The position numbers were made by a program, and so were the translations under genes. A DNA stretch of 22,793 bases from positions 1 through 22,793 of IMG/VR virus record IMGVR_UViG_3300010883_000538. One strand, given 5' to 3'. Below are positions 3,680-21,387 of this stretch, one piece after another. The stretch's first letter is position 1. Each line of letters begins with the position of its first letter. The notes beneath the pieces are model-generated. The model saw nothing but the letters and a program-made list of their open reading frames with translations, was not told the origin of the DNA and searched no databases. The stretch is from a virus.

Positions 3680-4917
3680 TTGCTCACCCAATTTTTAGCG
3701 GCGGTGAAGTTTGCTCGACTAAATTCTAGTCGATTAACTAGTTTCACTGCGTTGCCTTTTATTCTATCAACTGCTACAAACCCCTCAGGTTCGGTAGTCT
3801 TTAATCCATCATCTGTTCTCAGAAATGTCCCTATAGATTTAACTTTAGACAACTTCTGCACTAGCACATTTTTTGCTTCCATAATATTAATATATAGTTC
3901 TGTTACTGCTATTATGTCAGATTTTGAACTATCAATCTTATTTATACCATCTTTAAGTATCTCACGATATTTATCTTTAGATACTTCGGTCTTTTTACTA
4001 TCAATTTCTTTATTCATCTTAGTGTTCCAATAAGTTTTGAACTCACTAACAACTGTATTAGCATTTGGAAAGTCACCCTCACTTCTAAAGTAAACATTTA
4101 AGTGAGTTTTAAAGTTAGTCCAAAGCGAAAATCTATTTTTCTCATCAAAGTTTTCACTCATCTTATCTAGATAAGTCTTAACTGATTTTGATTGTGTTTC
4201 TATTTTAGAGATATAACCATTTAGTTTCTCAGTTTCTTTTGAAGTCATTGTTACTGAACCAGATACATCTTTATATGATGCATCATCGAACCAAATAGAC
4301 TTGTTCTTTTTTAATCTAGAAATGTTTATATTGAAAGATGCTTTCATATCTTCTAATTTCTTACCAGTGTATGTCGTATGAAAGATAATACCCATATTAG
4401 TTTTCTTGATAAACTTACCTAATGGACCTTCTTCTGGTACTGCATATACAATAGTGTTAGGTTGAAAAGTAATATACTTCTCACCATCATGTGACATTGA
4501 TTTTAAGTCGCTTTTAGTATACATCATGTCGCCTTGAATGACACCTTTGATACCTAACTTAGATAGTTCTTTCAATGCAACTTCTAATTTTTCTACAAGA
4601 CCACCACTATGATTTTTACGAATGTCTGCATTTGTTTTATTTAACTTTGGACTCTTATTAAACACAGACTTTGTAGCAACAAAGAATTTCTTATCTTCAG
4701 GATCAATCCCACAGAATATAGCAGGTGCGCCATCCCATTTAGTTGTAATGTTAGTAGCAGAACGACTACTACCTCCCAACATATCAGAGACAGACTTTAG
4801 AAACTCAATAGCATTAACTGCACCCTTATAACCATCTGTAATGATAGTCTCTTCGATGTGTGTCAAATGCGTATTGCGATTTTCTTCTAATTCAACGTGT
4901 TGTTTAAAATTTATCAT
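3676..4917 (-). CDS. DUF6267-like protein with DNA/RNA ligase-type motifs
   Basis: 413 residues. The opening MINFKQHVELEE... THLTHIEE, followed by a conserved block NAIEFLKSVSDML, matches a family of marine T4-like phages that I recall as DUF6267. I also see motifs of the covalent nucleotidyltransferase (ligase/capping) superfamily in the right order: KWDG at 60-63 (motif I, KxDG), IQGDMMY at 127-133 (motif III-like), FQPNTIVYAV at 151-160 (IIIa-like), EGFVAV at 378-383 (motif IV, EGxV) and NAVKLV at 389-394 (motif V, KL). About 200 residues, largely helical and lysine-rich, lie between IIIa and IV, much more than in classical ligases. The gene is first behind a strong promoter and has no clear Shine-Dalgarno sequence; the predicted mRNA start is the A of its ATG. 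It is coupled to the nucleotidylyltransferase gene by ATGA. Confidence 0.82.
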   Translation of the reverse strand: MINFKQHVELEENRNTHLTHIEETIITDGYKGAVNAIEFLKSVSDMLGGSSRSATNITTKWDGAPAIFCGIDPEDKKFFVATKSVFNKSPKLNKTNADIRKNHSGGLVEKLEVALKELSKLGIKGVIQGDMMYTKSDLKSMSHDGEKYITFQPNTIVYAVPEEGPLGKFIKKTNMGIIFHTTYTGKKLEDMKASFNINISRLKKNKSIWFDDASYKDVSGSVTMTSKETEKLNGYISKIETQSKSVKTYLDKMSENFDEKNRFSLWTNFKTHLNVYFRSEGDFPNANTVVSEFKTYWNTKMNKEIDSKKTEVSKDKYREILKDGINKIDSSKSDIIAVTELYINIMEAKNVLVQKLSKVKSIGTFLRTDDGLKTTEPEGFVAVDRIKGNAVKLVNRLEFSRANFTAAKNWVSK

Positions 4918-4923
4918 GCTACT

Positions 4924-4951
4924 ATTATACCATATCTTTGTTAGTTGTCAA
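4924..4951 (-). promoter_or_regulatory. Sigma70-type promoter for the 4917-1 operon
   Basis: On the minus strand TTGACA (4951-4946), a 16-bp spacer and TATAAT (4929-4924), both consensus. The predicted +1 (7 nt after the -10 box) is 4917, the A of the ATG itself. Upstream is A-tract DNA with repeated AAAAGTG, which could act as an UP element. A host-type early promoter is the simplest reading. Confidence 0.85.
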
Positions 4952-4986
4952 ACACTTTTTTTACTATTCTTCACTTTTTTATTTTC

Positions 4987-5006
4987 GTGTTGTATTTTTG
5001 CAACAC
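4987..5006. repeat. Stem-loop after the 5008-6207 gene
   Basis: Six-base arms GTGTTG and CAACAC around an 8-nt loop, one base after the TAG stop of the upstream gene on the minus strand. No U-tract follows (the next bases are A-rich), so it is a poor intrinsic terminator but may mark or protect the 3' end. A near copy occurs at 21268-21287. Confidence 0.45.
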
Positions 5007-5007
5007 T

Positions 5008-6207
5008 CTATCCATATAATTTCTTACCGGTCGCCGATTTGGAAGTATAGTCTAGTAAGAAGTGACTTGGTGCAACTCCGCCTTGCTTGTTTCTTATATT
5101 TAGTTTAAAATCAAAGTAAGGATTTGAGAATTTCATATCAACACGTTTCGCCATACCATTCGTAATACCACCATAATATAGTGTAAATTGTGAACCACTG
5201 ATATTTGAATACTTTTTATTCTCATCAACACCAACCCACCAACAAAATGCTTTACCAGAACCTTGACCATGTGCCATCCAATAGTTAGCACCAATAGCAC
5301 TTTGTAGTAGTGAAGTTAGTAGTTGCTTATCAATACTTCGTGTTACGTCTACAATATGTGATGAGTTACCTGTTGCTTTCTTTCCTGTGCCATAGTTATT
5401 AAATACTGCACAGAATGTCGCATTATCAATACCTAATGATTTAAGTAATTGCACACCCATCTGATTTGTAATAGTGCCATTTGTTACTTCTCTTTCACTA
5501 AATGGTTTACCTGAACCTTTTACACCAGTGTTAACGAATGTAAGAGTACTTGAAAACTTTGCTGAAATATATGTTTCAGTCTTATCAGCATGAAATACTG
5601 TAATGTCAGTTACTTTCTTTCCAACATCTGCTGGATTGCCTGGACCAATCATAGGTTTTCCACCACTCATTATGAATGGTCGACTTTCATTCGCACCACC
5701 AACTTGTTTAATTCTATCAACAGGAGACCTATTCTCATTACAAATTGCAGTGATTAGCGAACCTGCTAGTTTTGAATTTATATTTTCGTTCTTCACTCCA
5801 TTTGCATAATCTATCAAAGCATGAGCGAGTTCTCTTTCAAACTTTAGTCCTAGATTTTCTTTCTTTCCACCTGCAGGTTGTCCACCAAACTCTTCAGTCT
5901 TTATTAGTTTAGTAACTGGAATGACTACTGTTCTAATCTGACCAGTATATACTCCTTTGAGTGATACTGTATTACCTCTTTGTCCTTTGAAAGCAAGAAT
6001 TTTATTTGCTAACTCTTCGGCGACAGAAGGCATAACTCCAGGTCGTCTTAATGTCTCTACGTTATTAACTATTATTGCAGTTGCTTCAAACGTACCATCT
6101 GCAGTAGTAAAAGTTGAAGACCTATTATCTAGTTGCATAACCTTATTAACCAACAGTGTTGGTCGATATGGGTACTTAGAAATATCTGCTACTGATAGAG
6201 TTGCCAT
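5008..6207 (-). CDS. Conserved phage protein, possible PD-(D/E)XK nuclease fold
   Basis: 399 residues; the ATG overlaps the TAA of the HExxH gene (TAATG). I do not recognise a named family with confidence. The region GLKFERELAHALIDY (120-134) followed by DITVFHADK (201-209) and ETYISAKF (211-218) resembles the core of restriction-type endonucleases: an acidic helix, then a strand with Asp, then a strand ending in S-x-K (D201, K217, with E124/E126 as possible extra ligands). The C-terminal third is rich in aromatic residues (NYWMAHGQGSGKAFCWW, FTLYYGG, PYFDFKLNIRNKQ) and may bind nucleic acid. In the same transcript as the HExxH protein. A DNA-processing role fits the context but the fold is an inference. 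Confidence 0.72.
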   Translation of the reverse strand: MATLSVADISKYPYRPTLLVNKVMQLDNRSSTFTTADGTFEATAIIVNNVETLRRPGVMPSVAEELANKILAFKGQRGNTVSLKGVYTGQIRTVVIPVTKLIKTEEFGGQPAGGKKENLGLKFERELAHALIDYANGVKNENINSKLAGSLITAICNENRSPVDRIKQVGGANESRPFIMSGGKPMIGPGNPADVGKKVTDITVFHADKTETYISAKFSSTLTFVNTGVKGSGKPFSEREVTNGTITNQMGVQLLKSLGIDNATFCAVFNNYGTGKKATGNSSHIVDVTRSIDKQLLTSLLQSAIGANYWMAHGQGSGKAFCWWVGVDENKKYSNISGSQFTLYYGGITNGMAKRVDMKFSNPYFDFKLNIRNKQGGVAPSHFLLDYTSKSATGKKLYG

Positions 6208-6656
6208 TAGAATATATCATTTTTCCAACAATCCTTAGCGAGACTTTTCTGAAGCATATATGCTTCTTTCTCCCAAGGAAGGTCATAATAGTTAGTTTCA
6301 GGCATCACCTTGGTATTCTTCCAACGTGCAACACCCATTCCGTTCCAATCATCCATTTCACCACGAACATATTGTTTAACGTGTACCATCTCATGGCACA
6401 ATGTCATTACGAAATCTTTGATAGACAAGTCTTTTGAAACTTCTATCTCATATTGTCTTTTATCATCACCCATCATACAGTAACCCACGGCGGTATCTTC
6501 GTTCATCTTCTTCAGTTGAACTTCGATTTCGATATTACGCAATCGTGGCATTAATTTTGTTATCATGTAGTATATAACATTTTCAGCAATTTCTCGCTGA
6601 GTTTTGTTACCACCTACGATACCTACTATATGCACCTTAACCTCTTTTCTTATCAT
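6207..6656 (-). CDS. SprT-like HExxH zinc protein
   Basis: 149 residues from the ATG at 6656. TLCHEMVHVKQY holds HEMVH (H88, E89, H92), the zincin motif; E129 or E131 in LPWEKEAY about 40 residues on could be the third ligand, as in SprT-like proteins. N-terminal GIVGGNKTQREIAENVIYYM precedes two predicted strands. Similar small HExxH proteins are common in marine myophages; they may act as proteases on DNA-bound proteins, but the substrate is unknown. The gene follows a consensus promoter with predicted +1 three bases before the ATG. A GTG at 6635 lies just after GAGGT and could be a second start (giving MHIVGIVGG). A longer frame reaching 6698 would begin upstream of the promoter and is unlikely. 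Confidence 0.82.
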   Translation of the reverse strand: MIRKEVKVHIVGIVGGNKTQREIAENVIYYMITKLMPRLRNIEIEVQLKKMNEDTAVGYCMMGDDKRQYEIEVSKDLSIKDFVMTLCHEMVHVKQYVRGEMDDWNGMGVARWKNTKVMPETNYYDLPWEKEAYMLQKSLAKDCWKNDIF

Positions 6657-6665
6657 TACTACTAT

Positions 6666-6694
6666 ATTATAGCAATGTTTACCATGCTTGTCAA
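6666..6694 (-). promoter_or_regulatory. Consensus sigma70-type promoter for the HExxH gene
   Basis: Minus strand TTGACA (6694-6689), 17-bp spacer, TATAAT (6671-6666): a perfect match to consensus. Predicted +1 at 6659, three bases before the ATG. The sequence GTGCTTGACA is shared with the promoters at 18740 and 21359. Confidence 0.88.
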
Positions 6695-6727
6695 GCACTT
6701 TCTCATAAAAAAGTTTGTTTAGTATAA

Positions 6728-6735
6728 GTATTTAT
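6728..6735 (-). promoter_or_regulatory. Possible T4-type late promoter box
   Basis: ATAAATAC on the minus strand, preceded by C, differs from the T4 late -10 element TATAAATA at one base. It overlaps the stop of the 78-residue gene and lies about 70 nt before the HExxH gene, so it could give that gene a late transcript. A single motif of this size in AT-rich DNA is weak evidence. An inverted repeat ACCTCGA/TCGAGGT (6754-6780) lies 18 bp upstream. Confidence 0.3.
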
Positions 6736-6968
6736 GATTGTTTAGAAGTGGGAACCTCGAACCCATGAAGAAATCGAGGTATTTGCCAGTCAGCAAATCC
6801 AGTGCCGGAGTTCAAAGACTTTATAGTATCTTCTGCTTTATCTTTTTCGATTGTCAGATAGATAGTATCTTTAAACTTTTTATCAAAGGCAGTCCAAATA
6901 TTATATTCTCCGTCAAACTTCAAACTAAATCTTGAATGACGAGAAGTCCTTGTACTTTTTGTTTTCAT
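6732..6968 (-). CDS. Small hypothetical protein overlapping gp41
   Basis: 78 residues from the ATG at 6968, chosen because AAGGAG lies about 10 nt upstream; the in-frame TTG at 7001 has no such site. It overlaps the 3' end of the helicase gene by 44 bp in another frame. The product is basic at the N-terminus (MKTKSTRTSRHSRFSLKFDG) and then has IYLTIEKDKAEDTIKSL, suggesting a small beta-beta-alpha fold. No family recognised. The good ribosome site and its position as the end of the gp41 transcript support it as a gene. Confidence 0.6.
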   Translation of the reverse strand: MKTKSTRTSRHSRFSLKFDGEYNIWTAFDKKFKDTIYLTIEKDKAEDTIKSLNSGTGFADWQIPRFLHGFEVPTSKQS

Positions 6969-8364
6969 TATTTCTGTTCTCCTTGAGTTTATCAAATCCA
7001 AATGCTTGTTCCTCTACTACTTCAACTTTTTGTGGTGCTTTATGTTTCATATTCTCTACTAAGTCTTCTTGTGCAGAATCCTCAACATCGTACAGTTGCA
7101 TCTTTGCTCTATCAATACCAAGTACAAATCTTTTATACTTAGTAGGATCATTATAACGATTTTTCAACTGCTTTACTAGAATTTGATTATGTTGTTCTAG
7201 TTCTTCATTTGAAATTAATGCAAACATAAAATCGCACGTTGCTGGTAGACCGAAACTTTCAGAGGTATCTTCAAGACCAATATCGGTACTTGAGAATCCT
7301 TGTCTAGTTGTCTGAGTAGCAGAGATGATAGGTACATTATGCTCAACGGCAAGACCTCTCAATTCTTCTGCAATGGATTTAATAATAGTGTAGGAGTTGT
7401 GAGAACTTCCTGCTTTAAATCTTTGTGATGCACATATATTTAAATAGTCAATACAGATAGCATCAGGTTTGAAACTTTTCTTTAATGCTAGTTCATTTAT
7501 TAGTGCATCAAAGTGACCCTTATGTGCAGTTGCAGTCGGATATTCTTTGACTATCAACTTGCCGTGGGTCTCTTTTTGTAGTTGTTTTAATTTTTTATCG
7601 AACATAGACTTAGGTAGTTCTTCTAATGTCTGTATGTCCATGTTTAGTAGATTAGCATCAATACGTTCAGCAATTCTTTCTTCTGCCATTTCCATAGTGA
7701 TGTATAATACGTTCTTACCATGCATCATATAGTTTGCGGCAAGATGACACATAAACAAGGATTTACCAACACCAGTTCCTGCTAGTGCTACGTTCAATGT
7801 TTTTTTAGGTAGACCACCTTTTGTAATCAAGTCTAGATACTTGAGATTGAAAGGTATCTTCTCTTCTTTAGTATGATAGAACTCATATCTATCATCCCAA
7901 TTTTCAAAGTAATCGTGACCAACATTAGGATCAAATGATACTGAAAGAGCATCAGATAACATCGATGGTAAGGAATCAGGAGTTCTCTTCTTGTCTTTAC
8001 CTTCTATTATCTGAATACCCTCAGAGATTGCATTGTAGATTGCTTTTTCTTGACAGAACTTTTCAGTCGCATCAGTCAACCATTCAGTATCAGTATTTTG
8101 TGTGTTAAGTGAATTGATAATATCAACTGCAGAATTAAACTCAGGTTCTGCAATATTATGTTGAGTATTCATATCAATCACAATTTGCTCAGAAGAAGGA
8201 AGTTTATTATACTTTGATACTGAAGCAGAAATAGTAGAGAATACGAGTTTTTCTGAAGTATCGTGAAAATACTCAGGACGTAGAAACGGCATCACTTTCC
8301 TCACAAACTCTTCGTTGTGAATTAAGTTAGATAATATTGTTCGTTCAATCCTTGCCGTTTGCAT
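6925..8364 (-). CDS. 41: Replicative DNA helicase, T4 gp41 type
   Basis: 479 residues, close to T4 gp41. DnaB-family hexameric helicase that unwinds the fork and partners the primase. The N-terminal helical domain starts [15 protein letters not shown]; the RecA-like motor has Walker A GTGVGKS at 196-202, ITMEMAEERIAERIDANLL after it, Walker B AICIDYLNI, and the motif ISATQTTRQG. The C-terminal 60 residues are charged and probably flexible. It overlaps the upstream 93-residue gene by 20 bp; an AAAGG lies upstream of the ATG. Order uvsX, small gene, gp41 is that of marine T4-like phages. The primase gp61 is not in the window. Confidence 0.96.
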   Translation of the reverse strand: MQTARIERTILSNLIHNEEFVRKVMPFLRPEYFHDTSEKLVFSTISASVSKYNKLPSSEQIVIDMNTQHNIAEPEFNSAVDIINSLNTQNTDTEWLTDATEKFCQEKAIYNAISEGIQIIEGKDKKRTPDSLPSMLSDALSVSFDPNVGHDYFENWDDRYEFYHTKEEKIPFNLKYLDLITKGGLPKKTLNVALAGTGVGKSLFMCHLAANYMMHGKNVLYITMEMAEERIAERIDANLLNMDIQTLEELPKSMFDKKLKQLQKETHGKLIVKEYPTATAHKGHFDALINELALKKSFKPDAICIDYLNICASQRFKAGSSHNSYTIIKSIAEELRGLAVEHNVPIISATQTTRQGFSSTDIGLEDTSESFGLPATCDFMFALISNEELEQHNQILVKQLKNRYNDPTKYKRFVLGIDRAKMQLYDVEDSAQEDLVENMKHKAPQKVEVVEEQAFGFDKLKENRNNENKKYKDFSSFKI

Positions 8365-8626
8365 ATACTAAGTCGCCTTTCTGTAATTTCTCTTCAATTT
8401 GTTCAACAATGATATCACCAACAATAGATGTAAAATCATCTTCAATAGTAATATCTTCTTTATTCTCTAGTATCTCATACTTGAAACGCATTGCACGATG
8501 ACCAGTTTCGTCTGGTTGACCAAACTGAATACGACCTACTTGATATATAATATTCTCATATTTACCTTCAAGTATCTTTGTTCCTAGTACGTCTTTCTTC
8601 TCGGCGTAACTATATTTCACCACCAT
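8345..8626 (-). CDS. Conserved small protein between uvsX and gp41
   Basis: 93 residues from the ATG at 8626, preceded by AAAGGAG; this start overlaps uvsX by 17 bp. The sequence [39 protein letters not shown] and a C-terminal [15 protein letters not shown] suggests a small alpha/beta protein. I recall similar proteins at the same place in marine T4-like phages, where they lack an assigned function. Its overlap with both neighbours points to coordinated expression with recombination and helicase proteins. Confidence 0.8.
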
Positions 8627-9632
8627 AACTAAACTTCTCCTTTGCAAAGGCATCAATTTTTTGCATCACTTCATCTGTGAAATATACTTCTGGAGAATGT
8701 AATATCTCTTTACCATATCTCTTAGAACCATCAGCGACTTCAATACGAGTTGCTACTTTCTTAAATATGCCTGCTTCTTCAGCAAGTTCTATAAGACCGT
8801 AGTAACGATTGAGACCACCTTTATAACGCAAGGACACATCAATCATAGAGTTTTCTTTAGTTAGTCGTGATTTATTTAACTTACAGTGAATAATATTACC
8901 TACTACTTCTGTACCTTCTTTTTCTTTTCTCTTAGAAAGAAATACGATTGATGAGGCGGCATACTGAAGACCAGAACCACCACCCATTACTTTCTGTGGG
9001 AACATTGTACCCATTTGGTCATAAGTGTGATTAGTAACAATCATAGGAACTTTTGCTTTACCTAACTTCAACGTCAATACTCTGAATGTCGCTTTAGTAA
9101 GTTGTGCCCTAGTCATATCTCTAGTTTCTTTACCATCTGCAGTATCTTCAATCTCTTTTGTTGTTGACAACATTCCGAGACTATCTAACACAAACAGTAA
9201 AGGTCTTTTATCTGCATCTGCTTGTTCAATATACTTGTCAAGAATTTTAATACCTTGATTACGAAATTCTTGAATGGTAGTCACTGGCATCATTACAATA
9301 CGTTTAGTATCAATACCACGCTCATCAATCATATCTTTAGTTAAAGCACTCTCTGTTTCGAAATAGACAACACCTGCATCAGGATTGCTTTCTAGAAAAT
9401 GCTTTACTAATCCGAGAGCAAAGAAAGTTTTTCCAGTGCTGGACTCACCAGCAATAGCAGTAATTTTATTTGATGGTAACCCACCATATATACTACCACT
9501 CAATAGTGCATTGAAAGCATACGAACCAGTATCAATGTAACCTTGTACGTCACCTGCTTCGACACCATCATCAACGATGCCTGCATACTCATTCTTACTC
9601 TCTTTGACTATTTCTTTTAAAAAATCATTCAT
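8610..9632 (-). CDS. uvsX: UvsX RecA-like recombinase
   Basis: 340 residues, somewhat shorter than T4 UvsX (about 390). It forms filaments on single-stranded DNA and drives strand exchange for recombination-dependent replication. Walker A GESSTGKT is at 62-69; FETESALT follows as the catalytic-Glu region, then Walker [30 protein letters not shown] and the loop [20 protein letters not shown], all typical of UvsX. It has its own promoter and a short leader with GAGGT before the ATG. Its ATG overlaps the stop of a five-codon reading frame in the leader. Confidence 0.96.
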
Positions 9633-9646
9633 TTACTATACCTCAT
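9629..9646 (-). other. Possible leader minicistron MRYSK before uvsX
   Basis: ATG AGG TAT AGT AAA TGA starts 5 nt after the predicted mRNA 5' end; its TGA overlaps the uvsX ATG as ATGA. The same segment contains the GAGGT that serves uvsX, so the frame could be a by-product of the ribosome site. A similar frame (MMRYIF) stands before gp43. Confidence 0.35.
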
Positions 9647-9657: not shown

Positions 9658-9686
9658 AATATATCATAAACATCTACAATTGTCAA
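9658..9686 (-). promoter_or_regulatory. Sigma70-type promoter for uvsX
   Basis: Minus strand TTGACA (9686-9681), 17-bp spacer, TATATT (9663-9658). Predicted +1 at 9651. The -35 hexamer contains the TGA stop of the gene at 9683-9946, so the promoter begins inside the upstream gene's end. Confidence 0.78.
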
Positions 9687-9956: not shown

Positions 9957-12494
9957 CTATCCGAAAAAGTCTTCTAATGTTGCGACTTTCTCTAATTGCC
10001 AACCTATACTACCTGAAATAAAAGTCAGTGGGTCTAGGAAGGATTTTGTAAATTGCATATCATAATCAATATATCTATGCAAATCAAACTCAGTTGGTAA
10101 ATCTGACAAGAATGATATGATGTTCTCACCTATAGGATTAGGCATTTTTAAGTGAACGAATTTTATCTTCTCGCCATCTTTGATTTGTGGGTAGTTCTTT
10201 GATATCTTTTTATCTTTGACAGTTTGATTAAACATCAAGGCGCCACGGACGTGCATCGGCGTACCTTTAGTATAAACTTTTATCTCAGAAGCATACTTCT
10301 TAATACCATTTACAGAACGAGGAAATGCAATCTCTTCTGGTGATAGTTTAAGAAATTCTTCTCTTGTTTTCTCAACGAATTCTATCAGTTCATCATTGTC
10401 ACCTTTTACGATAACTTTGATTGCTTCTCTTAGAAATACACGAACTGGTGCAGGAGTTGAAGACTTTACAACTTCAAGTCCCATAATCTTTAGTTTAGGT
10501 TCAGCATACTGAACACCCTCAGAGTTATGTACATTAAGAATATATCTTTTCTTTGCAGTCCAGATGCCTCTATCAGCGATTACTTCTCGCTTCATAAACA
10601 TCTTTTGTGCATATGAGTTCATATAAGTAGCAAGGTCTTGATAGCAATTATCAATAAACGGTTCAATTTTCTCTGAACCGACCTTATCAAGGAATCTAAC
10701 CACCTTGGGAGTGAGTTCACTACTTTGACTTTTTGTGAATGGTTTTCCCTCATTAAACACTTGGTATACAAGTTTACTAAGATTAATGTATACTGAATCC
10801 GTATCACTTGCAATAACGTAGTTGGTTTCATTGTTTTCATCCTTCAATAACTTACTGAAATATTTATTCAGTGCCCTCTCTATCCAACGTATAGAAAGTT
10901 GACCAGAGAGTGTAATACCCTCTGCTTGACGAATATCAAAATATCTAAAATACTGATTACCTAAAGCACCATAAGCAGAGTTCAATGCAATCTTTTTTGC
11001 TAATTGAATGTTATTGTAGCGAGAGATGAAGTTCTTTAGTTCAGAATTCTTAGTGATTTCATATTCTTTTTCTGCTTCAATCATCTTCTTCTTATAGAAT
11101 GTTCTAGTCTCATAAATCTCTTCCATCATCTTAGGAAGAAACCCTTGAACATCTGCACGAAAACATTGACCATTCGCCGCCATCGATAAATTCTTTTGCT
11201 TCAATACTGAATTGTCAAACTTCTTATCTAGCAAGTCATCGACATTAACATCTAATCTTTCGTTAGTGATAGTGTCAGGAGAAATGTTATACTGCATAAT
11301 CAAGTGTGGGTACAATGAATTTAAATCGAATGACATAACCCACTCATGTTGACCTACAATAGGGTCTTTCACATAAGCACCAGCATAAGCAGTATCTTTA
11401 TTATGAAAAGACTTAGGTGGAATAACAACACCTCTTCGTCTTAGATAATTATAGATAAGCATATCCCAACATCGAACTTGAGAAAATACATCTTCAAAGT
11501 TTACACGAAAATCATATGCCATCGTCATCTGTAATTCAATCAGACCAAGTTTATCTTCAAGTTGAGATACTAATTCAACGTCACGAATGTTATAGTCTAC
11601 AAACTTAGTCCAATCTTGAGTATAGAAATCTTTGAAGTTCTGATACTCAGAGTGGTCTAGTTTCTCAGAACCGAGTTCTACGTTTGCAATATGTGCAAGT
11701 GCAAAACTTTCGTAACCAATACCACGATACTTTCTGAACAACTCAAGATAGTCAATACCAGCGATACCAAAGATATCATAGTAGACTTGTTCTCTACCTT
11801 GTACAGTCAGTTTACCACCCTTGACAACTTTCCAAGGAGAGATAGTTCGAACTTGCTCATCACCAAGTATTCGTTGAACACGATTGACGATATATGGAAT
11901 ATCAAAGAAGCGAGTATTCCAACCGGTAATAACATCTGGTTTGAATTCATTCAACCAAGAAATCCAGTCTTGAAGCATCTGTGCCTCAGTCTCGAAACAT
12001 CGATATTCTACTTCTTTGTTCTTACCAGTGTAAGGTCGTGTACCCCATGTAATCAACTTCTTTGATAGATTATCTTGAATTGTAATAAGAAGAATGCCTT
12101 CATTAGCAGTCTGAATATTAGGGAAACCAAACTCGGTCTCAGTCTCAATATCTAAAGAGATAACTGAAATTTGTTTTGTATCGAAAGGTATCTCTTCTTG
12201 CTCATAGAAGTTATCTGATATCCATTGATATGCGAACTGTGTTTGTCCGTATACTTTAAAGTTAGATACGTCTTTATAATCTTCTAGAAACTGTCTGGAT
12301 TCTTTGATAGAACCAGGTTTGAAATCTTCAACATAATCACCTTCTAAAGTTTTATATTGTGTTGGTGTCTTAGACTTTAAATATAACGTGGGAGAGAAAT
12401 CTTTGTATCTCTGCATAACACGTTGACCATCGTCATTAACTCCTCTTACAAGTAAGTTGTTGCCCCATTGTTGAACATTTGTGTAAAACTTCAA
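9957..12494 (-). CDS. 43: Family B DNA polymerase, T4 gp43 type
   Basis: 845 residues (T4 gp43 is 898). Replicative polymerase with proofreading. Exonuclease motifs: SLDIETE with D115/E117, GWNTRFFDIPYI (191-202), YNIRD with Y301/D305. Polymerase motifs: A, SFDLNSLYP with D390; B, KKIALNSAYG (500-509); C, SDTDSVY with D564/D566. The C-terminal LEDFFG resembles a sliding-clamp binding peptide. The start is TTG: no ATG or GTG in frame gives an N-terminus like the family's (K-F-Y-T-N-V...GNN), and TGAGGT lies about 8-10 nt upstream. The TTG overlaps the TGA of a minicistron. The leader after the predicted +1 is only about 20 nt, too short for a T4-like translational operator hairpin. Confidence 0.96.
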   Translation of the reverse strand: MKFYTNVQQWGNNLLVRGVNDDGQRVMQRYKDFSPTLYLKSKTPTQYKTLEGDYVEDFKPGSIKESRQFLEDYKDVSNFKVYGQTQFAYQWISDNFYEQEEIPFDTKQISVISLDIETETEFGFPNIQTANEGILLITIQDNLSKKLITWGTRPYTGKNKEVEYRCFETEAQMLQDWISWLNEFKPDVITGWNTRFFDIPYIVNRVQRILGDEQVRTISPWKVVKGGKLTVQGREQVYYDIFGIAGIDYLELFRKYRGIGYESFALAHIANVELGSEKLDHSEYQNFKDFYTQDWTKFVDYNIRDVELVSQLEDKLGLIELQMTMAYDFRVNFEDVFSQVRCWDMLIYNYLRRRGVVIPPKSFHNKDTAYAGAYVKDPIVGQHEWVMSFDLNSLYPHLIMQYNISPDTITNERLDVNVDDLLDKKFDNSVLKQKNLSMAANGQCFRADVQGFLPKMMEEIYETRTFYKKKMIEAEKEYEITKNSELKNFISRYNNIQLAKKIALNSAYGALGNQYFRYFDIRQAEGITLSGQLSIRWIERALNKYFSKLLKDENNETNYVIASDTDSVYINLSKLVYQVFNEGKPFTKSQSSELTPKVVRFLDKVGSEKIEPFIDNCYQDLATYMNSYAQKMFMKREVIADRGIWTAKKRYILNVHNSEGVQYAEPKLKIMGLEVVKSSTPAPVRVFLREAIKVIVKGDNDELIEFVEKTREEFLKLSPEEIAFPRSVNGIKKYASEIKVYTKGTPMHVRGALMFNQTVKDKKISKNYPQIKDGEKIKFVHLKMPNPIGENIISFLSDLPTEFDLHRYIDYDMQFTKSFLDPLTFISGSIGWQLEKVATLEDFFG

Positions 12495-12511
12495 AAGATA
12501 TACCTCATCAT
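12491..12511 (-). other. Possible leader minicistron MMRYIF before gp43
   Basis: ATG ATG AGG TAT ATC TTT TGA begins 3 nt after the predicted mRNA start; its TGA overlaps the TTG start of gp43 (TTGA). It contains the GAGGT used by gp43. Translation of it could couple ribosomes to the weak TTG start. Confidence 0.38.
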
Positions 12512-12520: not shown

Positions 12521-12549
12521 ATTATATAACAAATCACACATAAAGTCAA
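12521..12549 (-). promoter_or_regulatory. Sigma70-type promoter for gp43
   Basis: Minus strand TTGACT (12549-12544), 17-bp spacer, TATAAT (12526-12521). Predicted +1 at 12514. The -35 element lies in the middle of an inverted repeat (12535-12561). Confidence 0.8.
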
Positions 12550-12872: not shown

Positions 12873-13096
12873 TATTTTTCTCCTGCTAATAATTCTTTAC
12901 AAGTTTGAATGGAACCAAGAATAGCATTTGCTTCTGCTTCCAACTGTGTAATTGCTTTTCGATATTGTGCCAGCATATCTCTACGAGTTTCTAAGTCTGC
13001 TTCTAATTGAGTTACCTTATCATTAATTTTGATAACTGAAACATTCATTGCAGTCAACTTATCTGCAACTGGCGTTGCACTTTTCTTTGTTGTCAT
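12872..13096 (-). CDS. Small coiled-coil protein
   Basis: 74 residues, ATG with TTAGGAGA upstream. After a short Thr/Ser/Lys start, residues about 18-70 are a heptad-like helix (VIKINDKVTQLEADLETRRD, MLAQYRKAITQLEAEANAIL) with regular Leu/Ile/Val spacing, hence a probable coiled coil and oligomer. No family recognised. Same transcript as the beta-rich protein that follows. Preceded by a TATAAACT box that may be a late promoter. Confidence 0.75.
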   Translation of the reverse strand: MTTKKSATPVADKLTAMNVSVIKINDKVTQLEADLETRRDMLAQYRKAITQLEAEANAILGSIQTCKELLAGEK

Positions 13097-13122
13097 GTAT
13101 ATCTCCTAATAATATAATGAGC

Positions 13123-15194: not shown

Positions 15195-16141
15195 TATGAA
15201 AACTCACAATCAACCATCACTTCCGTAAAGAATGCAACCATGTTTACTTCTTGGTCTGCAACATGAACATTCTTAAACTGATAATCAGCAATTTTAAGAA
15301 CACAAGCAGGTATACTAGCAGGTTGTAAATGTACACTCATAGTGTCATAAACTTTGCGATAGATATCATCAGCACCAGTGGTGTGAATAGTATCAGCAAC
15401 CCATTTTCTCATACTAGAGAAGTCTTTATTCTTACAAAAACCAATTACGTTCTTGATATCTACATCACCTGAATTACCCGCCGCTTCTGCATCTATGCGA
15501 CCACCAATCGAAATCTTTTGAAGTTCGTTGAGTGTGCGGCGAAAGTCAGGAAAGAATTTTGAAACTATACTAGCAACAATATCATTCTCATATGCAACAT
15601 TCTCTTGTCCAAGAATATCTTGTACTCTCTTAAAGAATGAACCAGCAAGTTTTTGCTTTTCGTCTTTCGGAGTACTAAACTCAATTACTGAACACCTACT
15701 ATGTAATGCAGGAATGATTTTGTTTTTATAGTTACAAGTAAAGATGAACCGACAGTTCTTACTGAACTCTTCGATGAAGTTCCTCAATGCTGGTTGAGTA
15801 ACCGCAGTCAAATAATCTGCTTCATCATATATGACTACTTTTCCCTTGCCACTGAAGGATACAGTACTAGCAAAGTTCACAATCTTGTTTCGTAAGGTAT
15901 CGATATCACCTTCACTTGAACCATTAAGAATGATCCAATCATAACCCATTTGCTGACATAATGCCTTTGCTACAGTTGTTTTACCAACACCTGCAGACCC
16001 ACATAGCAATAGATTAGGAATCTCACCATTCTCAATAAATTGGAGAAACGTACTTTCAAGATGCTTCGGTAAGATAGCATCTTTAATAGTCTGCGGTCTA
16101 TACTTCTCCACCCACAGAAATTCATCACTTTTAATATCCAT
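15194..16141 (-). CDS. 44: Clamp loader ATPase subunit, gp44
   Basis: 315 residues (T4 gp44 319). AAA+ ATPase that opens the gp45 ring and places it on primed DNA. LWVEKYRPQTI is the RFC-box start; Walker A GSAGVGKT at 48-55; Walker B VVIYDEAD with DEAD at 106-109; SRC at 148-150 supplies the arginine finger. C-terminal helical collar with FPDFRRTLNELQKIS. ATG with GAGG about 9 nt upstream, 14 bp after gp45. Confidence 0.97.
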   Translation of the reverse strand: MDIKSDEFLWVEKYRPQTIKDAILPKHLESTFLQFIENGEIPNLLLCGSAGVGKTTVAKALCQQMGYDWIILNGSSEGDIDTLRNKIVNFASTVSFSGKGKVVIYDEADYLTAVTQPALRNFIEEFSKNCRFIFTCNYKNKIIPALHSRCSVIEFSTPKDEKQKLAGSFFKRVQDILGQENVAYENDIVASIVSKFFPDFRRTLNELQKISIGGRIDAEAAGNSGDVDIKNVIGFCKNKDFSSMRKWVADTIHTTGADDIYRKVYDTMSVHLQPASIPACVLKIADYQFKNVHVADQEVNMVAFFTEVMVDCEFS

Positions 16142-16155
16142 AATAATCCTCGTTG

Positions 16156-16821
16156 TTAACCTTCAAATGTGCTATCGACTTCTAATGCAATCCAATATTG
16201 CAAGTTCTTGTTAGCATTAACCCAATGAGAAATGTTTTTACTTGAAACAGTCAAGTCATACTCACCTGGAATCACTCTTAGATTATCACGTTTAAAATAG
16301 AATGCAAACTTACTACCATTGCCTTCTGCCACTTCAACATCGAACCTATTAGAAGTTTGGTTCTTCTTGTCGGTTGCAATTAGATTAATAGTATCACCAT
16401 CAGACACTAAACCAATATCAGATAATTGCATAATATTAGATGCTTTCAATAAATCTGTATAGTTTGATTGACTGATACGAACTTTCACTTCTGCACTTGG
16501 CATAACAATTTGCTTTGTTGGTGATACTACTAAACTCTTATCAGCATACCAGAATTTAGAATTAGACTTACCTTGAGATACAGTTAAGTAATCATCATAT
16601 AAGTTTACATCTGGTGCCTCGTAAAGTGATAGAACACTTAAAAAGGAGTTCAAGTCGTAGATAGCAAACTCTTTCTCAAAGTTCTCTTCTACTTTCGCAG
16701 TTGCTAGAACATTTTTCATTACTGAAATAGTTTCTAATGTATTGCCTGGTTTTACGAGCAGGTTCTCGTTAATTTCACTGAAGTTCTTTAAGACTTCAAA
16801 TGTATTTTTACTGATTTTCAT
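16156..16821 (-). CDS. 45: Sliding clamp, gp45
   Basis: 221 residues (T4 gp45 228). Trimeric ring that holds the polymerase on DNA and, in T4, also activates late transcription. Family blocks: MKISKNTFEVLKNFSEINEN, LLVKPGNTLETIS, FAIYDLNSFLSVLSLYEAP, VRISQSNYTDLLKASNIMQL and a closing YWIALEVDSTF. ATG overlaps the stop of the DUF3310 gene (TAATG). Its presence fits the candidate late boxes found elsewhere in the window. Confidence 0.97.
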   Translation of the reverse strand: MKISKNTFEVLKNFSEINENLLVKPGNTLETISVMKNVLATAKVEENFEKEFAIYDLNSFLSVLSLYEAPDVNLYDDYLTVSQGKSNSKFWYADKSLVVSPTKQIVMPSAEVKVRISQSNYTDLLKASNIMQLSDIGLVSDGDTINLIATDKKNQTSNRFDVEVAEGNGSKFAFYFKRDNLRVIPGEYDLTVSSKNISHWVNANKNLQYWIALEVDSTFEG

Positions 16822-17108
16822 TATAAATCCTCATCATGTATGTGCAGTTGTATAATTGCATAGTGTAAGACTTTTAATAAATCTTTTCGGGCATCACTAG
16901 CAGAACCCTTTTTGCCATATCGTTGTGCATACTTTAGCACATTGCCGATACAGAAACCTGTACCATGTCCACCATCAATGATGAACTCAGTCGCTTGAAA
17001 CTTGTCTTTGGAATAATGACCATTGTTATAGGTCGCATCGATGTACTTTTGAAATTCTTCAATTAATTCTTTTTCATTAAACTTATATTCTATTTTAGTA
17101 TTTTTCAT
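16821..17108 (-). CDS. DUF3310-like small protein
   Basis: 95 residues. FIIDGGHGTGFCIGNVLKYA and QRYGKKGSASDARKDLLKVL followed by HYAII match the pattern of DUF3310 proteins (GFxxGNxxKYxxRxGxK...D...A), common in phages and without a settled function (some databases call them nucleotide kinases on weak grounds). First gene of the replication operon; GTGAG upstream of the ATG, and a long hairpin (17143-17193) before that. In marine T4-like phages a similar gene stands before gp45. Confidence 0.83.
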   Translation of the reverse strand: MKNTKIEYKFNEKELIEEFQKYIDATYNNGHYSKDKFQATEFIIDGGHGTGFCIGNVLKYAQRYGKKGSASDARKDLLKVLHYAIIQLHIHDEDL

Positions 17109-17142
17109 ATATTTCTCACTTATTGTTTCATAATAAAAGTAG

Positions 17143-17193
17143 TGGGCACCGAGGTAGAAAGATGATTTGTAAGATGAAAAACCTCGGTGCCCA
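17143..17193 (-). terminator. Long-stem hairpin between the winged-helix gene and the gp45 operon
   Basis: Perfect 13-bp arms TGGGCACCGAGGT and ACCTCGGTGCCCA, nine of thirteen G/C in AT-rich DNA, around a 25-nt loop containing CATCTT twice. On the minus strand it begins 7 nt after the TAA at 17200 and is followed by CUACUUUUAUUAUG. The tail is only partly U-rich and the loop is long, so it may be a terminator, an mRNA-end stabiliser or an RNase target. Confidence 0.62.
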
Positions 17194-17199
17194 TACTAG

Positions 17200-17457
17200 T
17201 TAGGCAGTCGCTAGTGCTTGAAGACCAGCGGCAATGACTGCTTTACTTGGTGTACCTACACGATACGCCACTGAGTTAGTCTTACCCGTAGGGTTAGCAT
17301 AAATCATATTACCTTCGTACCTTAGGTCATGTACTCGTTTAGCAACATTTACTGTAGTAGTATTTGCTTTTTTCGCAAGTTGCTTAGTAGTAAAAGAACT
17401 TCCAGTTGAAAGTGCATTCATAATTTTTGTCTTGACAGACATTTTTGCTTTTGCCAT
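17200..17457 (-). CDS. Small winged-helix-like protein
   Basis: 85 residues, AAGGAG before the ATG. SVKTKIMNALSTGSSFTTKQ, LAKKANTTTVNVAKRVHDLR, YEGNMIYANP, TNSVAYRVG follows the helix, turn, recognition helix, beta-wing order of small winged-helix proteins. The tail GTPSKAVIAAGLQALATA includes the GTPSK motif that I recall from similar small phage proteins. It could be a transcription regulator or a DNA-binding structural protein. It is a one-gene unit bounded by hairpins at 17489-17509 and 17143-17193, which suggests separate, possibly high expression. Confidence 0.78.
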   Translation of the reverse strand: MAKAKMSVKTKIMNALSTGSSFTTKQLAKKANTTTVNVAKRVHDLRYEGNMIYANPTGKTNSVAYRVGTPSKAVIAAGLQALATA

Positions 17458-17480
17458 TATAAGTTCGCTCCTTATATAAT

Positions 17481-17488
17481 GTATTTAC
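17481..17488 (-). promoter_or_regulatory. Candidate late promoter box for the winged-helix gene
   Basis: GTAAATAC on the minus strand, 24 nt before the ATG at 17457 and directly abutting the hairpin at 17489-17509. Shares TAAATAC with the T4 late consensus. The spacing agrees with the boxes at 13123 and 13632. Confidence 0.36.
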
Positions 17489-17509
17489 GAGACTGCAAAA
17501 TGCAATCTC
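17489..17509 (-). terminator. Hairpin before the winged-helix gene
   Basis: Minus-strand RNA: GAGAUUGCA and UGCAGUCUC pair over 9 bp (one U-G pair) with a 3-nt UUU loop. It follows the AAA ATPase gene by about 24 nt. There is no U-run after it, so it may act as a processing or 3'-protecting hairpin rather than a classic terminator. Confidence 0.52.
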
Positions 17510-17518
17510 TTTCAATTG

Positions 17519-17538
17519 TTTTAAGTATACTCTTAAAA
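17519..17538. repeat. Inverted repeat over the AAA gene stop
   Basis: Arms TTTTAAG and CTTAAAA with 6 bp between, overlapping the TAA stop at 17533-17535. AT-rich and weak as RNA structure. Confidence 0.35.
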
Positions 17539-18708
17539 CGGTGTTTTGTCAACATCTTCTTTCGGTGCAATTTCACTTTCACCGACTTCAGTGTTAACGA
17601 TATCAGCATCCACCTTAGTATAAAGGTCAATGAATGCCGATTTAGTTTCATCATCAAAACGATTTATGCACATTTGGATCGCTTTCATACGGTCTCCAAA
17701 TACTGAATATGCTTTGACGATATGGACTAGTCTACGAGTTGCAATCAACTCATCGATGCCTCCATCCATGAAGGTCTTTCTGATAATATCTGCCCACTTG
17801 ACAAGTTTATCAGCAAAGTCCTCATCTTCTTTACCCACTGCAATTAGTTCTTTTGAGACAATCTTTTTCTCAATAGTAACTGCTGGATAATCTTGTTCCA
17901 CAGTAATAGGGAATCTTTCTAGGAATGCTTCATTAAGGATATTGGTTCCGATGAAACGACCATCTTCTGAACCCTTACCTTTTGTATTAGCAGTCGCAAC
18001 AATCTGAAAACCTTCTACAGGTTCTACAAACTGATTAATCTTCTTTAGAAGTACGCCATTACCTTCGAGGATTGGTTGTAAGCACATAATTTTGTTTGAT
18101 GCTAAATCAATCTCATCTAAAAGTAAAACGCCTCCTGCTTTCATTGCTTGAATAACTGGACCATCATACCAGACAGTCTCGCCATCGACAAGTCTATACC
18201 CACCGAGTAAATCATCTTCATCGGTTTCGATAGTAATGTTAACTCTAAAGAATTCTCTTTTAAGCATTGCACATACTTGTTCAAACATCATGGTCTTACC
18301 ATTACCTGATAGACCAGTGCAGAAGATAGGGTAGAACATCTTAGAACGAATGATACTACGGACATCTTGAAACTGACCAAAAGGAACATAATTCGCATAA
18401 ACTTTAGGAATTAAGTTATGTATTGTAGTATCAGAAATAGTAATACTCTTTTTCGCTACAGGTTGTTCTGGAACTTGAATGTTTTGCATTACTGCATCTC
18501 CAACGACCTTTGTTTCTGGCATCACACTGCCACTCATTAATGAATACAACCCGTTACCCATTTTGTATTCGTCATTTTTAACAATCCAAGACGGAGCATA
18601 TTTCATACCCATCTCATTTGCTACAGTAACTAATTCTGCTCTAGTAAAATCATTCTTACCATTGAACAGTTCTTTTGCTTTTGTTATAAAAGTTTCACGA
18701 TTATTCAT
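17533..18708 (-). CDS. cobS-like: MoxR/CobS-like AAA+ ATPase
   Basis: 391 residues from the ATG at 18708, chosen for GAGGTGA seven bases upstream; an in-frame ATGATG at 18732 lies one base after the predicted mRNA start and would add 8 residues. Residues 4-70 are a small N-terminal domain (FITKAKELFNG...FTRAELVTVANEMGM). The AAA core has Walker A GLSGNGKT at 132-139, DEDDLLGGYRLVDGETVWYD, Walker B LLLDEID at 195-201, sensor 1 ATANT at 238-242 and arginine finger FLERF. This is the CobS/NorQ type, often called CobS in cyanophages. Together with the VWA protein just upstream it forms an AAA-VWA pair, like CobS-CobT or MoxR-VWA, which remodel partner proteins or insert metals. No other cobalamin gene is present here. 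Confidence 0.93.
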   Translation of the reverse strand: MNNRETFITKAKELFNGKNDFTRAELVTVANEMGMKYAPSWIVKNDEYKMGNGLYSLMSGSVMPETKVVGDAVMQNIQVPEQPVAKKSITISDTTIHNLIPKVYANYVPFGQFQDVRSIIRSKMFYPIFCTGLSGNGKTMMFEQVCAMLKREFFRVNITIETDEDDLLGGYRLVDGETVWYDGPVIQAMKAGGVLLLDEIDLASNKIMCLQPILEGNGVLLKKINQFVEPVEGFQIVATANTKGKGSEDGRFIGTNILNEAFLERFPITVEQDYPAVTIEKKIVSKELIAVGKEDEDFADKLVKWADIIRKTFMDGGIDELIATRRLVHIVKAYSVFGDRMKAIQMCINRFDDETKSAFIDLYTKVDADIVNTEVGESEIAPKEDVDKTPF

Positions 18709-18739
18709 AATTATCACCTCTTTTTTCATCATATAATAT

Positions 18740-18769
18740 ATTATAGCATATTAAATAGTAGTTTGTCAA
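18740..18769 (-). promoter_or_regulatory. Sigma70-type promoter for the AAA ATPase gene
   Basis: Minus strand TTGACA (18769-18764), 18-bp spacer, TATAAT (18745-18740). Predicted +1 at 18733, one base before ATGATG. The -35 region belongs to a 29-bp repeat shared with the promoter at 21359. Confidence 0.8.
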
Positions 18770-18787
18770 GCACTAAATTCACTTTTT
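18759..18787. repeat. 29-bp direct repeat, copy 1 (promoter -35/upstream region)
   Basis: Exact 29-bp match with 21377-21405, spanning the -35 hexamer and the A/T-rich sequence before it. Both copies lie at the same place in a promoter, so this is probably a shared promoter module. Confidence 0.85.
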
Positions 18788-18816
18788 ATGGCAAATATGC
18801 ACTTTTTTTTCATTTT

Positions 18817-21150
18817 TTATGCTACCATGTCAATAAACTTCTGAAGTACTACTCGATTTTGAAGTTTACCCTTACCCATACGTTTAAATGCACTAGTTAG
18901 TTTTTGTTTTGATGCACCATTTAAGTCTTCGCCAAGACCTTCATCTTCTACTTCTAAATTCTTACCACCTTTGATGATATATAACTCATCAAGTCCACTG
19001 GCATAAGATACTGAACAATTTTCTCTGGTCATTAGTTTTTTCCACTCATCGAAATTGTAGTGTATTTCATTATCATCAGATGGTTTTCTGAAATCTGTTC
19101 TTTGTGTTTGAAAATATTGTTGCCAAGCATATCTCACTTCTTGACGTCCAGCGATAAAGAAACCAGTAGTATTAGCACCAGTCGAAATTTTCATCAACTT
19201 GTATAAACCTTTTGTGATATCATCAGTTGAAATTGAATAAGTATAACCTCTAACAATATTAGTATTAGTAATAGCAACTTGATTTTGACCATCTCGCAGG
19301 ATCAAAGTACCTGCTGACTTATAACTGCTATCTTCTTTAGTCCATTCCATCTCACCAGCACGACCTTCTCTATAACCAGAAACCCCATCGATGCCATGAC
19401 TTGAACCATCAGTTAAAAATGATGTACTAACAATTTGCACATTATTTCTTTGCTTGAATTCTTTTATTAATCTAGTAGCAATACAGATTGTATGATTAAG
19501 AGGTGTACCACCAAGATACATATTACGAGGAAGTCCCCACCAAGCATAGTCACCTCTGCTTTTTCTATCGTACATCGAACCGATTGCAATAGAAATACCT
19601 AGAGCATCATTAAATTCTTTAGAAGTCATTTTCTCATGGAATAACTCTAAAAGAGAAACACTTTCTAAAAGTGCCTCATGTAAGTTATGAGATTGACGTT
19701 TTTCTTTTTGCTCAGGAGAAATTCTTTTTGCCCACTCAGAACTAAAACCATAAGCGGCGAAAGGAATATTTGCTTTTCTACAAAACAATGCAAGGTTAAT
19801 TAATTGTTGCATTGTACCATGCATATTATCTGCCATTGAACCAGACCAATCTAAAAAGAAAATCATACCATGGTCTTTACCATTAGGAATAATATTTTTC
19901 TTTAGAAAGATATCATCATTATATTTGTAAGAATGTAATTTATTAACATTCAAAACACCAGTTCTGGCACTAGTTGCTCTAGCATATCTATCTGCTTGTT
20001 TTTTCATTTCGAATTCTTTATGAAGATAGTTTATAATCTTTTCATTTTTCTTTTTGAATTCTTTTACATTCTTAGCAAGAGTATCTTCTCTACTGCCGTC
20101 AGTATTTACTGACCAATGGTCATAAAGAGACTTTTTAATTTCTGCAAAAGGAACTGTATAATCTTTAACATTAAGAACTTTAGGAATATCTAGATATCTA
20201 ACTTGCTTTGAAATATCAGTCTCAACTAATTCTCTAGTAGATTGTTGAGTACCAAGGTCAGTAATTGATTTAGCACCAGGTGTCAAACCTTTTTCACTTT
20301 TAATCTTACCAGTCATATTCTTTTTAGGTGCAGGATTTGATTTACTTTCAGTCTCTTCGGAATCATTACCTTCTTCATTAGTTTTCTGACCGCCTTGACC
20401 AGTACCTTTTTCTTCGTCTGAATTTTCATCTTGCTCTTCGCCAGAATTAGAAGGTTGGTCAACTTCACTACCTGTCTCTTCTTGATTTTCATCAGACTGA
20501 GAAGTTTCTTGTTCACCTTGCTCTTCATTTGAATTATCAGATTCAACTGACATATACTGCTCAGTATCTTCGCCGTTCTGAGTTTTATTTTCTAACTCTT
20601 CTTGACAGTACTCATATAATTCTTCAGCAAGAGTAAAAACTTCATCAAAGGTTTCTGTTTTTTGTGACCTAGTTAAAAAGTCTTGTTCTACATCAGTAAA
20701 AGGAATGTCAATTTGTGTACCTAACTTTGCTTTAAGATTAAGACGGTCAATTAAAAGCATCTCTTCTGTTTTCTTACCATCAGTATGAAAGAAGTTATTT
20801 GACTGTAACTTACTATATGCATTATAGAAAGGTTTTTTTAGACCAGGATACTTCTTTTGAATTAGTCGTTCAATACGAACATCTTCGACTACGTTTACAA
20901 AAGAGTGAAAGTTTTTAGGTTTGTCTCTTAACTTATCCATACCACTCATTGGTGTATATAGAGCATGAGAAACTTCGTGACCGACAAACAAGTCTAATAT
21001 TTCGGCATCAATATCTTTCAGAGTAGGAATTCTAAGAATACGTTTTTCAACATCAAAACTTGCAGTCTCGACATTAGAAAATTCAACTGTTAGGTTTTCA
21101 GTAGCAAGTAATTTTGCTAGAACCGACTTTATTTCTTTTACGTTTTCCAC
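18817..21150 (-). CDS. CobT-like VWA protein with N-terminal HExxH motif
   Basis: 777 residues from a GTG at 21150 that follows GAGGTGAACATA; an ATGATG at 21177, exactly at the predicted +1, is in frame and would add 9 residues. Numbering from the longer form: HEVSH at 67-71 is a zincin motif, and VNVVEDVRIERL at about 95-106 offers E98 as a third ligand. Residues about 195-285 are very acidic and low in complexity (Glu, Asp, Ser, Gln, Gly), as in CobT. A VWA domain from about 435 has a full MIDAS: DWSGS (D443, S445, S447), T558 in GGTPL, D590 in FLTDGS. The downstream AAA gene is its likely partner. I infer a metal-dependent remodelling or protease complex acting on phage or host proteins. 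True cobaltochelatase activity is unlikely without the other subunits. Confidence 0.9.
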   Translation of the reverse strand: MENVKEIKSVLAKLLATENLTVEFSNVETASFDVEKRILRIPTLKDIDAEILDLFVGHEVSHALYTPMSGMDKLRDKPKNFHSFVNVVEDVRIERLIQKKYPGLKKPFYNAYSKLQSNNFFHTDGKKTEEMLLIDRLNLKAKLGTQIDIPFTDVEQDFLTRSQKTETFDEVFTLAEELYEYCQEELENKTQNGEDTEQYMSVESDNSNEEQGEQETSQSDENQEETGSEVDQPSNSGEEQDENSDEEKGTGQGGQKTNEEGNDSEETESKSNPAPKKNMTGKIKSEKGLTPGAKSITDLGTQQSTRELVETDISKQVRYLDIPKVLNVKDYTVPFAEIKKSLYDHWSVNTDGSREDTLAKNVKEFKKKNEKIINYLHKEFEMKKQADRYARATSARTGVLNVNKLHSYKYNDDIFLKKNIIPNGKDHGMIFFLDWSGSMADNMHGTMQQLINLALFCRKANIPFAAYGFSSEWAKRISPEQKEKRQSHNLHEALLESVSLLELFHEKMTSKEFNDALGISIAIGSMYDRKSRGDYAWWGLPRNMYLGGTPLNHTICIATRLIKEFKQRNNVQIVSTSFLTDGSSHGIDGVSGYREGRAGEMEWTKEDSSYKSAGTLILRDGQNQVAITNTNIVRGYTYSISTDDITKGLYKLMKISTGANTTGFFIAGRQEVRYAWQQYFQTQRTDFRKPSDDNEIHYNFDEWKKLMTRENCSVSYASGLDELYIIKGGKNLEVEDEGLGEDLNGASKQKLTSAFKRMGKGKLQNRVVLQKFIDMVA

Positions 21151-21183
21151 TATGTTCACCTCTTTATCTCTCATCATGTATAC

Positions 21184-21212
21184 ATTATCTCATAACTTGG
21201 TGTTAATGTCAA
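21184..21212 (-). promoter_or_regulatory. Sigma70-type promoter for the VWA gene
   Basis: Minus strand TTGACA (21212-21207), 17-bp spacer, GATAAT (21189-21184). Predicted +1 at 21177, the A of an in-frame ATGATG. The -35 hexamer contains the TGA stop of the small membrane protein gene. Confidence 0.78.
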
Positions 21213-21352
21213 GTAAATAATGCACTAATTATGGCAATAATGACAAATAAACCGAAAAACATACAAAGTGTTGCAAAAATGCAACAGATTGACCAGTAAA
21301 TCAATTTAAATGGGAGTGTTAATCCAAACCATATACTTTTAAAAATCATCAT
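21209..21352 (-). CDS. Small membrane protein
   Basis: 47 residues from the ATG at 21352, the predicted transcription start; further upstream codons would lie before the promoter. Nearly the whole chain is hydrophobic: MIFKSIWFGLTLPFKLIYWS, then CCIFATLCMFFGLFVIIAII, enough for one or two membrane spans, with Lys at 5 and 17. No Shine-Dalgarno sequence, so it would be a leaderless mRNA. Its TGA lies within the -35 box of the next promoter. No family recognised; an inner-membrane effect on the host (holin-like, exclusion) is possible but unsupported. Confidence 0.6.
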   Translation of the reverse strand: MMIFKSIWFGLTLPFKLIYWSICCIFATLCMFFGLFVIIAIISALFT

Positions 21353-21358
21353 AGGTAT

Positions 21359-21387
21359 ATAGTACCATAAACTATTTAGTTTGTCAA
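21359..21387 (-). promoter_or_regulatory. Sigma70-type promoter for the small membrane protein
   Basis: Minus strand TTGACA (21387-21382), 17-bp spacer, TACTAT (21364-21359) with a TGG just before the -10. Predicted +1 at 21352, the A of ATGATG. Confidence 0.75.

Follow-up and report, generated by a model that had tools for sequence, protein, structure and literature searches.

On the minus strand of a marine viral genome fragment, seven consensus promoters are each followed by an ATG at or near the predicted transcription start, and comparison with related phages suggests that these ATGs mostly reflect leaderless translation, or dual leaderless and ribosome-site translation, of ordinary genes by a known mechanism. 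We regard as probable an explanation with three classes, namely leaderless genes, genes with a dual start, and incidental ATGs. The stretch of DNA analysed, here called the window, is a 22.8-kb (22,793 nt) IMG/VR fragment from an uncultured marine T4-like myophage, and the genes for gp41, UvsX, gp43, the clamp (gp45), the clamp loader (gp44), the CobS-like ATPase and DUF6267 all lie on its minus strand. The isolates nearest by DNA are cyanophages and the Methylophilales phage Melnitz, with similarity in short stretches only, and among isolates Pelagibacter phage HTVC008M carries the DUF6267 protein most closely related to that of the window. An Rfam scan of the window gave 0 matches.

The first-pass annotation had proposed seven minus-strand promoters with TTGAC(A/T) and spacers of 16-18 nt, and all seven were confirmed in place. 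In coordinate order, they are:

4924 to 4951, minus strand: promoter TTGACA-16-TATAAT with TG before the -10 box, conserved in orthologues
6666 to 6694, minus strand: promoter TTGACA-17-TATAAT, upstream of the SprT-like leader
9658 to 9686, minus strand: uvsX promoter, TTGACA-17-TATATT
12521 to 12549, minus strand: gp43 promoter, TTGACT-17-TATAAT
18740 to 18769, minus strand: promoter of the CobS-like gene, TTGACA-18-TATAAT
21184 to 21212, minus strand: promoter of the phrog_459 gene, TTGACA-17-GATAAT
21359 to 21387, minus strand: promoter TTGACA-17-TACTAT

Scored against the host sigma70 early promoter (TTGACA, 16-18 nt, TATAAT), these sites have 10 to 12 matches of 12. The ATG lies 6 nt (4917), 9 nt (6656), 11 nt (9646), 9 nt (12511), 7 nt (18732), 6 nt (21177) and 6 nt (21352) after the -10 box, and the distances of 0, 3, 5, 3, 1, 0 and 0 nt from the predicted +1 to the ATG, as counted earlier, equal these measured spacings. 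Six of the seven ATGs continue as ATGATR, as had been noted; the exception is ATGAGG at 9646. We then shuffled the 30 nt 3′ of each -10 box while keeping the dinucleotides. On average 1.95 of 7 promoters carried an ATG at 6-11 nt, and none of 5000 trials reached the 7/7 of the window, indicating that the placement is indeed improbable by chance. An eighth strong TTGAC promoter (TTGACA/TATACT, -10 ending at 17524) is without such an ATG, so that 7/8 strong TTGAC promoters in the window carry one. A general promoter scan found 99 promoter-like sites in the window compared with 82 in shuffled sequence, and only the best promoter sites are therefore meaningful. Two strong promoter-like sites (11/12) were also seen on the plus strand, at 13090-13118 and 17451-17480, opposed to the direction of all genes; possibly they give rise to antisense transcripts, or they are due to chance.

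Relatives came from protein searches and a DNA pattern search of IMG/VR, and the comparison further took in long contigs from the window's clade, the isolates Melnitz and HTVC008M, T4 and three cyanophages. Removal of near-identical leaders left 405 non-redundant promoters from relatives of the window and from further marine T4-like contigs. An ATG stood at 6-9 nt after the -10 box in 81 of the 405, compared with 50.1±6.6 in shuffled sequence, and ATGATR in 28 of the 405, compared with 5.4±2.3, which bears out the expectation that ATGATR is enriched near +1 in related marine myophages. For the clade of the window alone, the values were 36 of 120 non-redundant promoters (19.2±3.7 when shuffled) for ATG and 18 of 120 (2.6±1.6) for ATGATR; the relatives are not independent of each other. 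No comparable ATG enrichment was seen in T4, Syn9, P-HM2 or P-SSM2, and we rejected a near-+1 ATG as a general property of T4-like phages on this ground. In distant relatives from another marine clade (L026 and L029), several promoters have a different leader, with TATTGATTCGTTAA after the -10 box.

We then examined the reading frame of these ATGs, with promoters sorted by a simple Shine-Dalgarno (SD) rule into class A, where no SD start follows, and class B, where an SD start follows. In class A, the ATG at 6-8 nt was in frame and open in 29/35 cases, compared with 18/46 (about 39%) at 10-20 nt (Fisher 7e-5); in class B, it was in frame in 15/24 cases, compared with 24/83 (about 29%) at 10-20 nt (Fisher p 0.003). 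The bias is confined to about 6-9 nt and is absent at 0-5 and 10-20 nt. Moreover, we scanned the viral collection with the pattern TTGAC-N16-18-TATAAT-N6-8-ATGATG, without selection by frame or taxon, which gave at least 53 non-redundant, unambiguous cases from diverse viral contigs. Among the matches listed, ATGATG at exactly 6 nt was in frame 29:4 (p 1e-10 against one third), and at 7-8 nt it was in frame 8:12. Bacterial RNA polymerase prefers a pyrimidine at -1 and a purine at +1 (the YR initiator). The base preceding an in-frame ATG at 6 nt was a pyrimidine in 25/26 promoters of the relatives and in 27/29 of the pattern-scan matches listed, which fits a start on the A of the ATG because of this preference. 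A transcription signal would have a random frame, and since the frame is biased, the ATG is not explained as such a signal; the cause of the near-+1 ATG looks translational. The bias is a tendency rather than a rule, as class B at 9 nt with SprT excluded has only 4/15 in frame and the CobS leaders have 4 in frame and 3 out. We propose that host-type sigma70 early promoters abut the genes and that transcription would begin at the AUG or 1-3 nt before it.

Two genes of the window fall in class A:

3676 to 4917, minus strand: DUF6267 gene, predicted leaderless; ATG 6 nt after the -10 box (predicted +1), no SD
21209 to 21352, minus strand: gene for a small hydrophobic protein of 47 aa, predicted leaderless; ATGATG at the predicted +1, no SD

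The sequence between the -10 box and the ATG is AGTAGC at 4917 and ATACCT at 21352, neither of which holds a Shine-Dalgarno. Both ATGs lie 6 nt after a consensus -10 box with a pyrimidine at -1, which places the predicted 5′ ends, and in relatives conservation of the proteins sets in at the ATG or immediately behind it. Six deduplicated leader variants of the DUF6267 gene have the ATG at 6 nt, except that one of the six has it at 4 nt by a slightly different assignment of the -10 box; codon changes just after the ATG are synonymous or conservative (ATA/ATT for Ile, CAC/CAT for His, AAA/AAG for Lys). The closest DUF6267 relative, L153, has lost the promoter, and there the same ATG stands behind AAGG, an SD. 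In the window, G001 and L082, the 21352 protein opens with MMIFKSIWFG, encoded from the predicted +1, while the orthologues in L086, L088 and L096 (MLLLNAIWFG, MLNAIWFG and MFSAIWFG) are SD-led, from an ATG that follows a promoter of this kind by 20-30 nt. Another family, of which L041 is typical, likewise alternates between leaderless and SD-led versions. Several members of the clade have a primase gp61 that appears leaderless, and so does Melnitz, whose annotated start for it (26014) falls on the predicted +1 ATG; the same holds for the annotated start of HTVC008M gp113 (93048). Spacing, start conservation and orthologues thus support well the earlier prediction of leaderless mRNAs for 4917 and 21352, and the two genes are best read as leaderless, with the AUG as the presumed sole start.

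In class B, an AUG with a predicted 5′ terminus 0-3 nt before it is followed by a downstream SD-led start, as found at 6656, 18732 and 21177:

6207 to 6656, minus strand: gene for an SprT-like protein (Pfam SprT-like below the curated cut-off; PHROG families of unknown function)
6633 to 6656, minus strand: leader of the SprT-like gene, ATGATAAGAAAAGAGGTTAAGGTG, with the 5′ ATG at 6656 and an SD-led GTG at 6635, in frame, 7 codons on
17533 to 18732, minus strand: gene for a CobS-like AAA+ ATPase, phrog_249
18706 to 18732, minus strand: leader of the CobS-like gene, ATGATGAAAAAAGAGGTGATAATTATG, with the 5′ ATG at 18732 and an SD-led ATG at 18708, in frame, 8 codons on
18817 to 21177, minus strand: phrog_459 ('peptidase') gene
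21148 to 21177, minus strand: leader of the phrog_459 gene, ATGATGAGAGATAAAGAGGTGAACATAGTG, with the 5′ ATG at 21177 at the predicted +1 and an SD-led GTG at 21150, in frame, 9 codons on

The suggestion that a 5′ ATG precedes a second, SD-bearing start in the genes that are not leaderless therefore stands as a description of the anatomy, and the frame supports it at these three positions. We compared 55 distinct promoter-bearing leaders of the SprT gene, of which 39 are without an AUG at 5-10 nt. Where an ATG is present at 5-10 nt, it is in frame in 14/16 leaders, compared with 7/28 for leaders with UUG, CUG or GUG in that place (Fisher 7e-5), and the in-frame leaders have 6 to 10 codons between the 5′ ATG and the SD start. 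The in-frame state requires at least 7 changes on the SprT protein tree, and is therefore not one inherited event. In phylogenetically independent pairs, the SprT frame contrast had the expected direction and, with only 4-6 pairs, was not significant. The phrog_459 leaders have 6 in frame and 2 out. We propose that one class B mRNA would offer two starts, the AUG at its 5′ end and the SD start 7-9 codons on, and that the 5′ AUG may add a short N-terminal extension (MMRKEV-like) and/or deliver ribosomes to the nearby SD start. The promoters, their spacing, the frame bias and the evolutionary switching are observed, and from these we infer the exact +1, the use of the 5′ AUG in the cell and any effect on the SD start.

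The remaining two ATGs, which form class C, belong to uvsX and gp43:

8610 to 9632, minus strand: UvsX recombinase gene
9629 to 9646, minus strand: uvsX leader, ATGAGGTATAGTAAATGA, with an ATG 11 nt after the -10 box, out of frame with the ATG at 9632 and within SD context
9957 to 12494, minus strand: gene for the family B DNA polymerase gp43
12491 to 12511, minus strand: gp43 leader, ATGATGAGGTATATCTTTTGA, with a 6-codon uORF whose stop overlaps the TTG start at 12494

In uvsX, ATGAGG adjoins the SD, and its place is taken by TAGGAG or TGGAG in orthologues; in the gp43 relative G001, the ATG is changed to ATT (it reads ATTGAGG). A functional 5′ ATG at UvsX and gp43 was rejected, as it is not conserved in relatives. 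The ATGs at 9646 and 12511 are probably incidental, mostly reflecting SD context (ATGAGG), and would have no special role. Both short uORFs end on a TGA that overlaps the gene start; this overlap could permit coupling, and there is no sign of selection for coupling.

The first-pass annotation took AUGAUR to define a class of phage early promoters, as their conserved initial transcribed sequence, with a role in promoter escape or as a tag that marks mRNA 5′ ends. The strong enrichment of ATGATR at 6-9 nt agrees with this, as does the recurrence of the leader cassette ATGATGAGAAAAGAGGTG across several genes and relatives. However, orthologous promoters lose the AUG freely: they keep the -35 and -10 boxes but carry UUGAG, CUGAG or other sequence in its place, as the SprT leaders without an AUG (39/55) and the ATT of gp43 in G001 illustrate, and orthologues of gp43 and uvsX are without the motif. 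Moreover, the leaderless genes use ATGAAA, ATGTTA, ATGAAC and others, and a tag should be indifferent to frame, yet the frame is biased and in-frame AUGs are retained in preference to others. We consider such a promoter class decidedly improbable, and this part of the earlier proposal is not supported by the comparison. It is also unlikely that all these ATGs are a functionless side effect of compact genomes with AT-rich, SD-containing leaders (ATGAGG). This would suit the unconserved ATGs of uvsX and gp43, which lie directly against the SD, but it does not predict an in-frame bias restricted to about 6-9 nt.

Another alternative, for which E. coli ptrB is a precedent, is that ribosomes land on the 5′ AUG or are handed over from it, which boosts initiation at the SD start close by, and that the peptide or extension is irrelevant. 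The SD start of class B lies 21-27 nt after the 5′ AUG, near the 26-nt leader of ptrB, and several leaders, such as those of CobS, hold the 5′ ATG out of frame. The in-frame bias at 6-8 nt (15/24), on the other hand, is unexpected if binding alone matters, unless out-of-frame initiation is harmful. We therefore regard this alternative as possible but doubtful. A 5′-terminal AUG ahead of an SD start is known from the E. coli mRNAs described by Beck, Fleming and Janssen (2016; PMC4965119). Translation was supported by most of the 5′-uAUGs there, and removal of the 5′-uAUG of ptrB reduced downstream expression to <8%. Class B is similar to these mRNAs in its predicted 5′-end AUG and in the distance of about 20-30 nt from there to the SD-led start that follows. 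In contrast, the E. coli study deliberately chose out-of-frame uORFs, whereas the phage 5′ AUG shows a tendency to be in frame, which would yield an N-terminally extended protein.

The preferred reading, leaderless or dual translation, also has a counterpart in known leaderless mRNAs from bacteria and from phages, such as that of lambda cI (reviewed in PMC9031893), which resemble the mRNAs predicted here in having an AUG at or near the 5′ end, no SD, and a sigma70-type promoter directly upstream. The present cases differ in that their 5′ ends are predicted only, that the layout recurs at several unrelated genes within one phage lineage, and that orthologues switch between leaderless and SD-led versions. 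For Melnitz, which belongs to the same phage group, 31 early sigma70 promoters of the same type have been predicted (PMC9004378); the paper describes no leaderless or 5′-AUG layout, and 'leaderless' occurs in its reference list only. Literature searches confined to an open-access collection turned up no description of leaderless transcription in marine T4-like phages.

A different conserved leader element was observed after the CobS-like gene, at 17459-17552 on the minus strand. Here, the -10 box of a promoter is centred in a palindrome, GTTTTAAG...CTTAAAAC, which is followed by a hairpin, GAGATTGC...GCAGTCTC, ahead of the SD of the next gene. Both stems covary in relatives, with 22 cells changed on both sides compared with 7.9 in shuffles, and 95% of cells are paired compared with about 38-44% when slid. 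The element could be an operator with a leader hairpin, and we take it to resemble the promoter-stem-loop cassettes of T4-type phages.

Members of the clade carry a homologue of ribosomal protein S21 (G002:C1:110259-110417 and G004:C1:12084-12242). The bS21 gene was also found in Melnitz and HTVC008M, and it is absent from T4, the three cyanophages and this 22.8-kb fragment. One could imagine dual-mode early mRNAs on which phage bS21 shifts ribosomes between the in-frame 5′ AUG and the SD start during infection. We rate this as very improbable, and the link to bS21 is a lead only; if true, such a shift of mode would alter protein isoforms or favour phage mRNA.

Across many phage genes, leaderless, dual and SD-led versions of one gene coexist, which makes up a large natural set. 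With these versions side by side, the evolution and use of leaderless initiation become directly testable. The finding also bears on annotation, since the starts of such genes may be misplaced by gene callers that depend on an SD.
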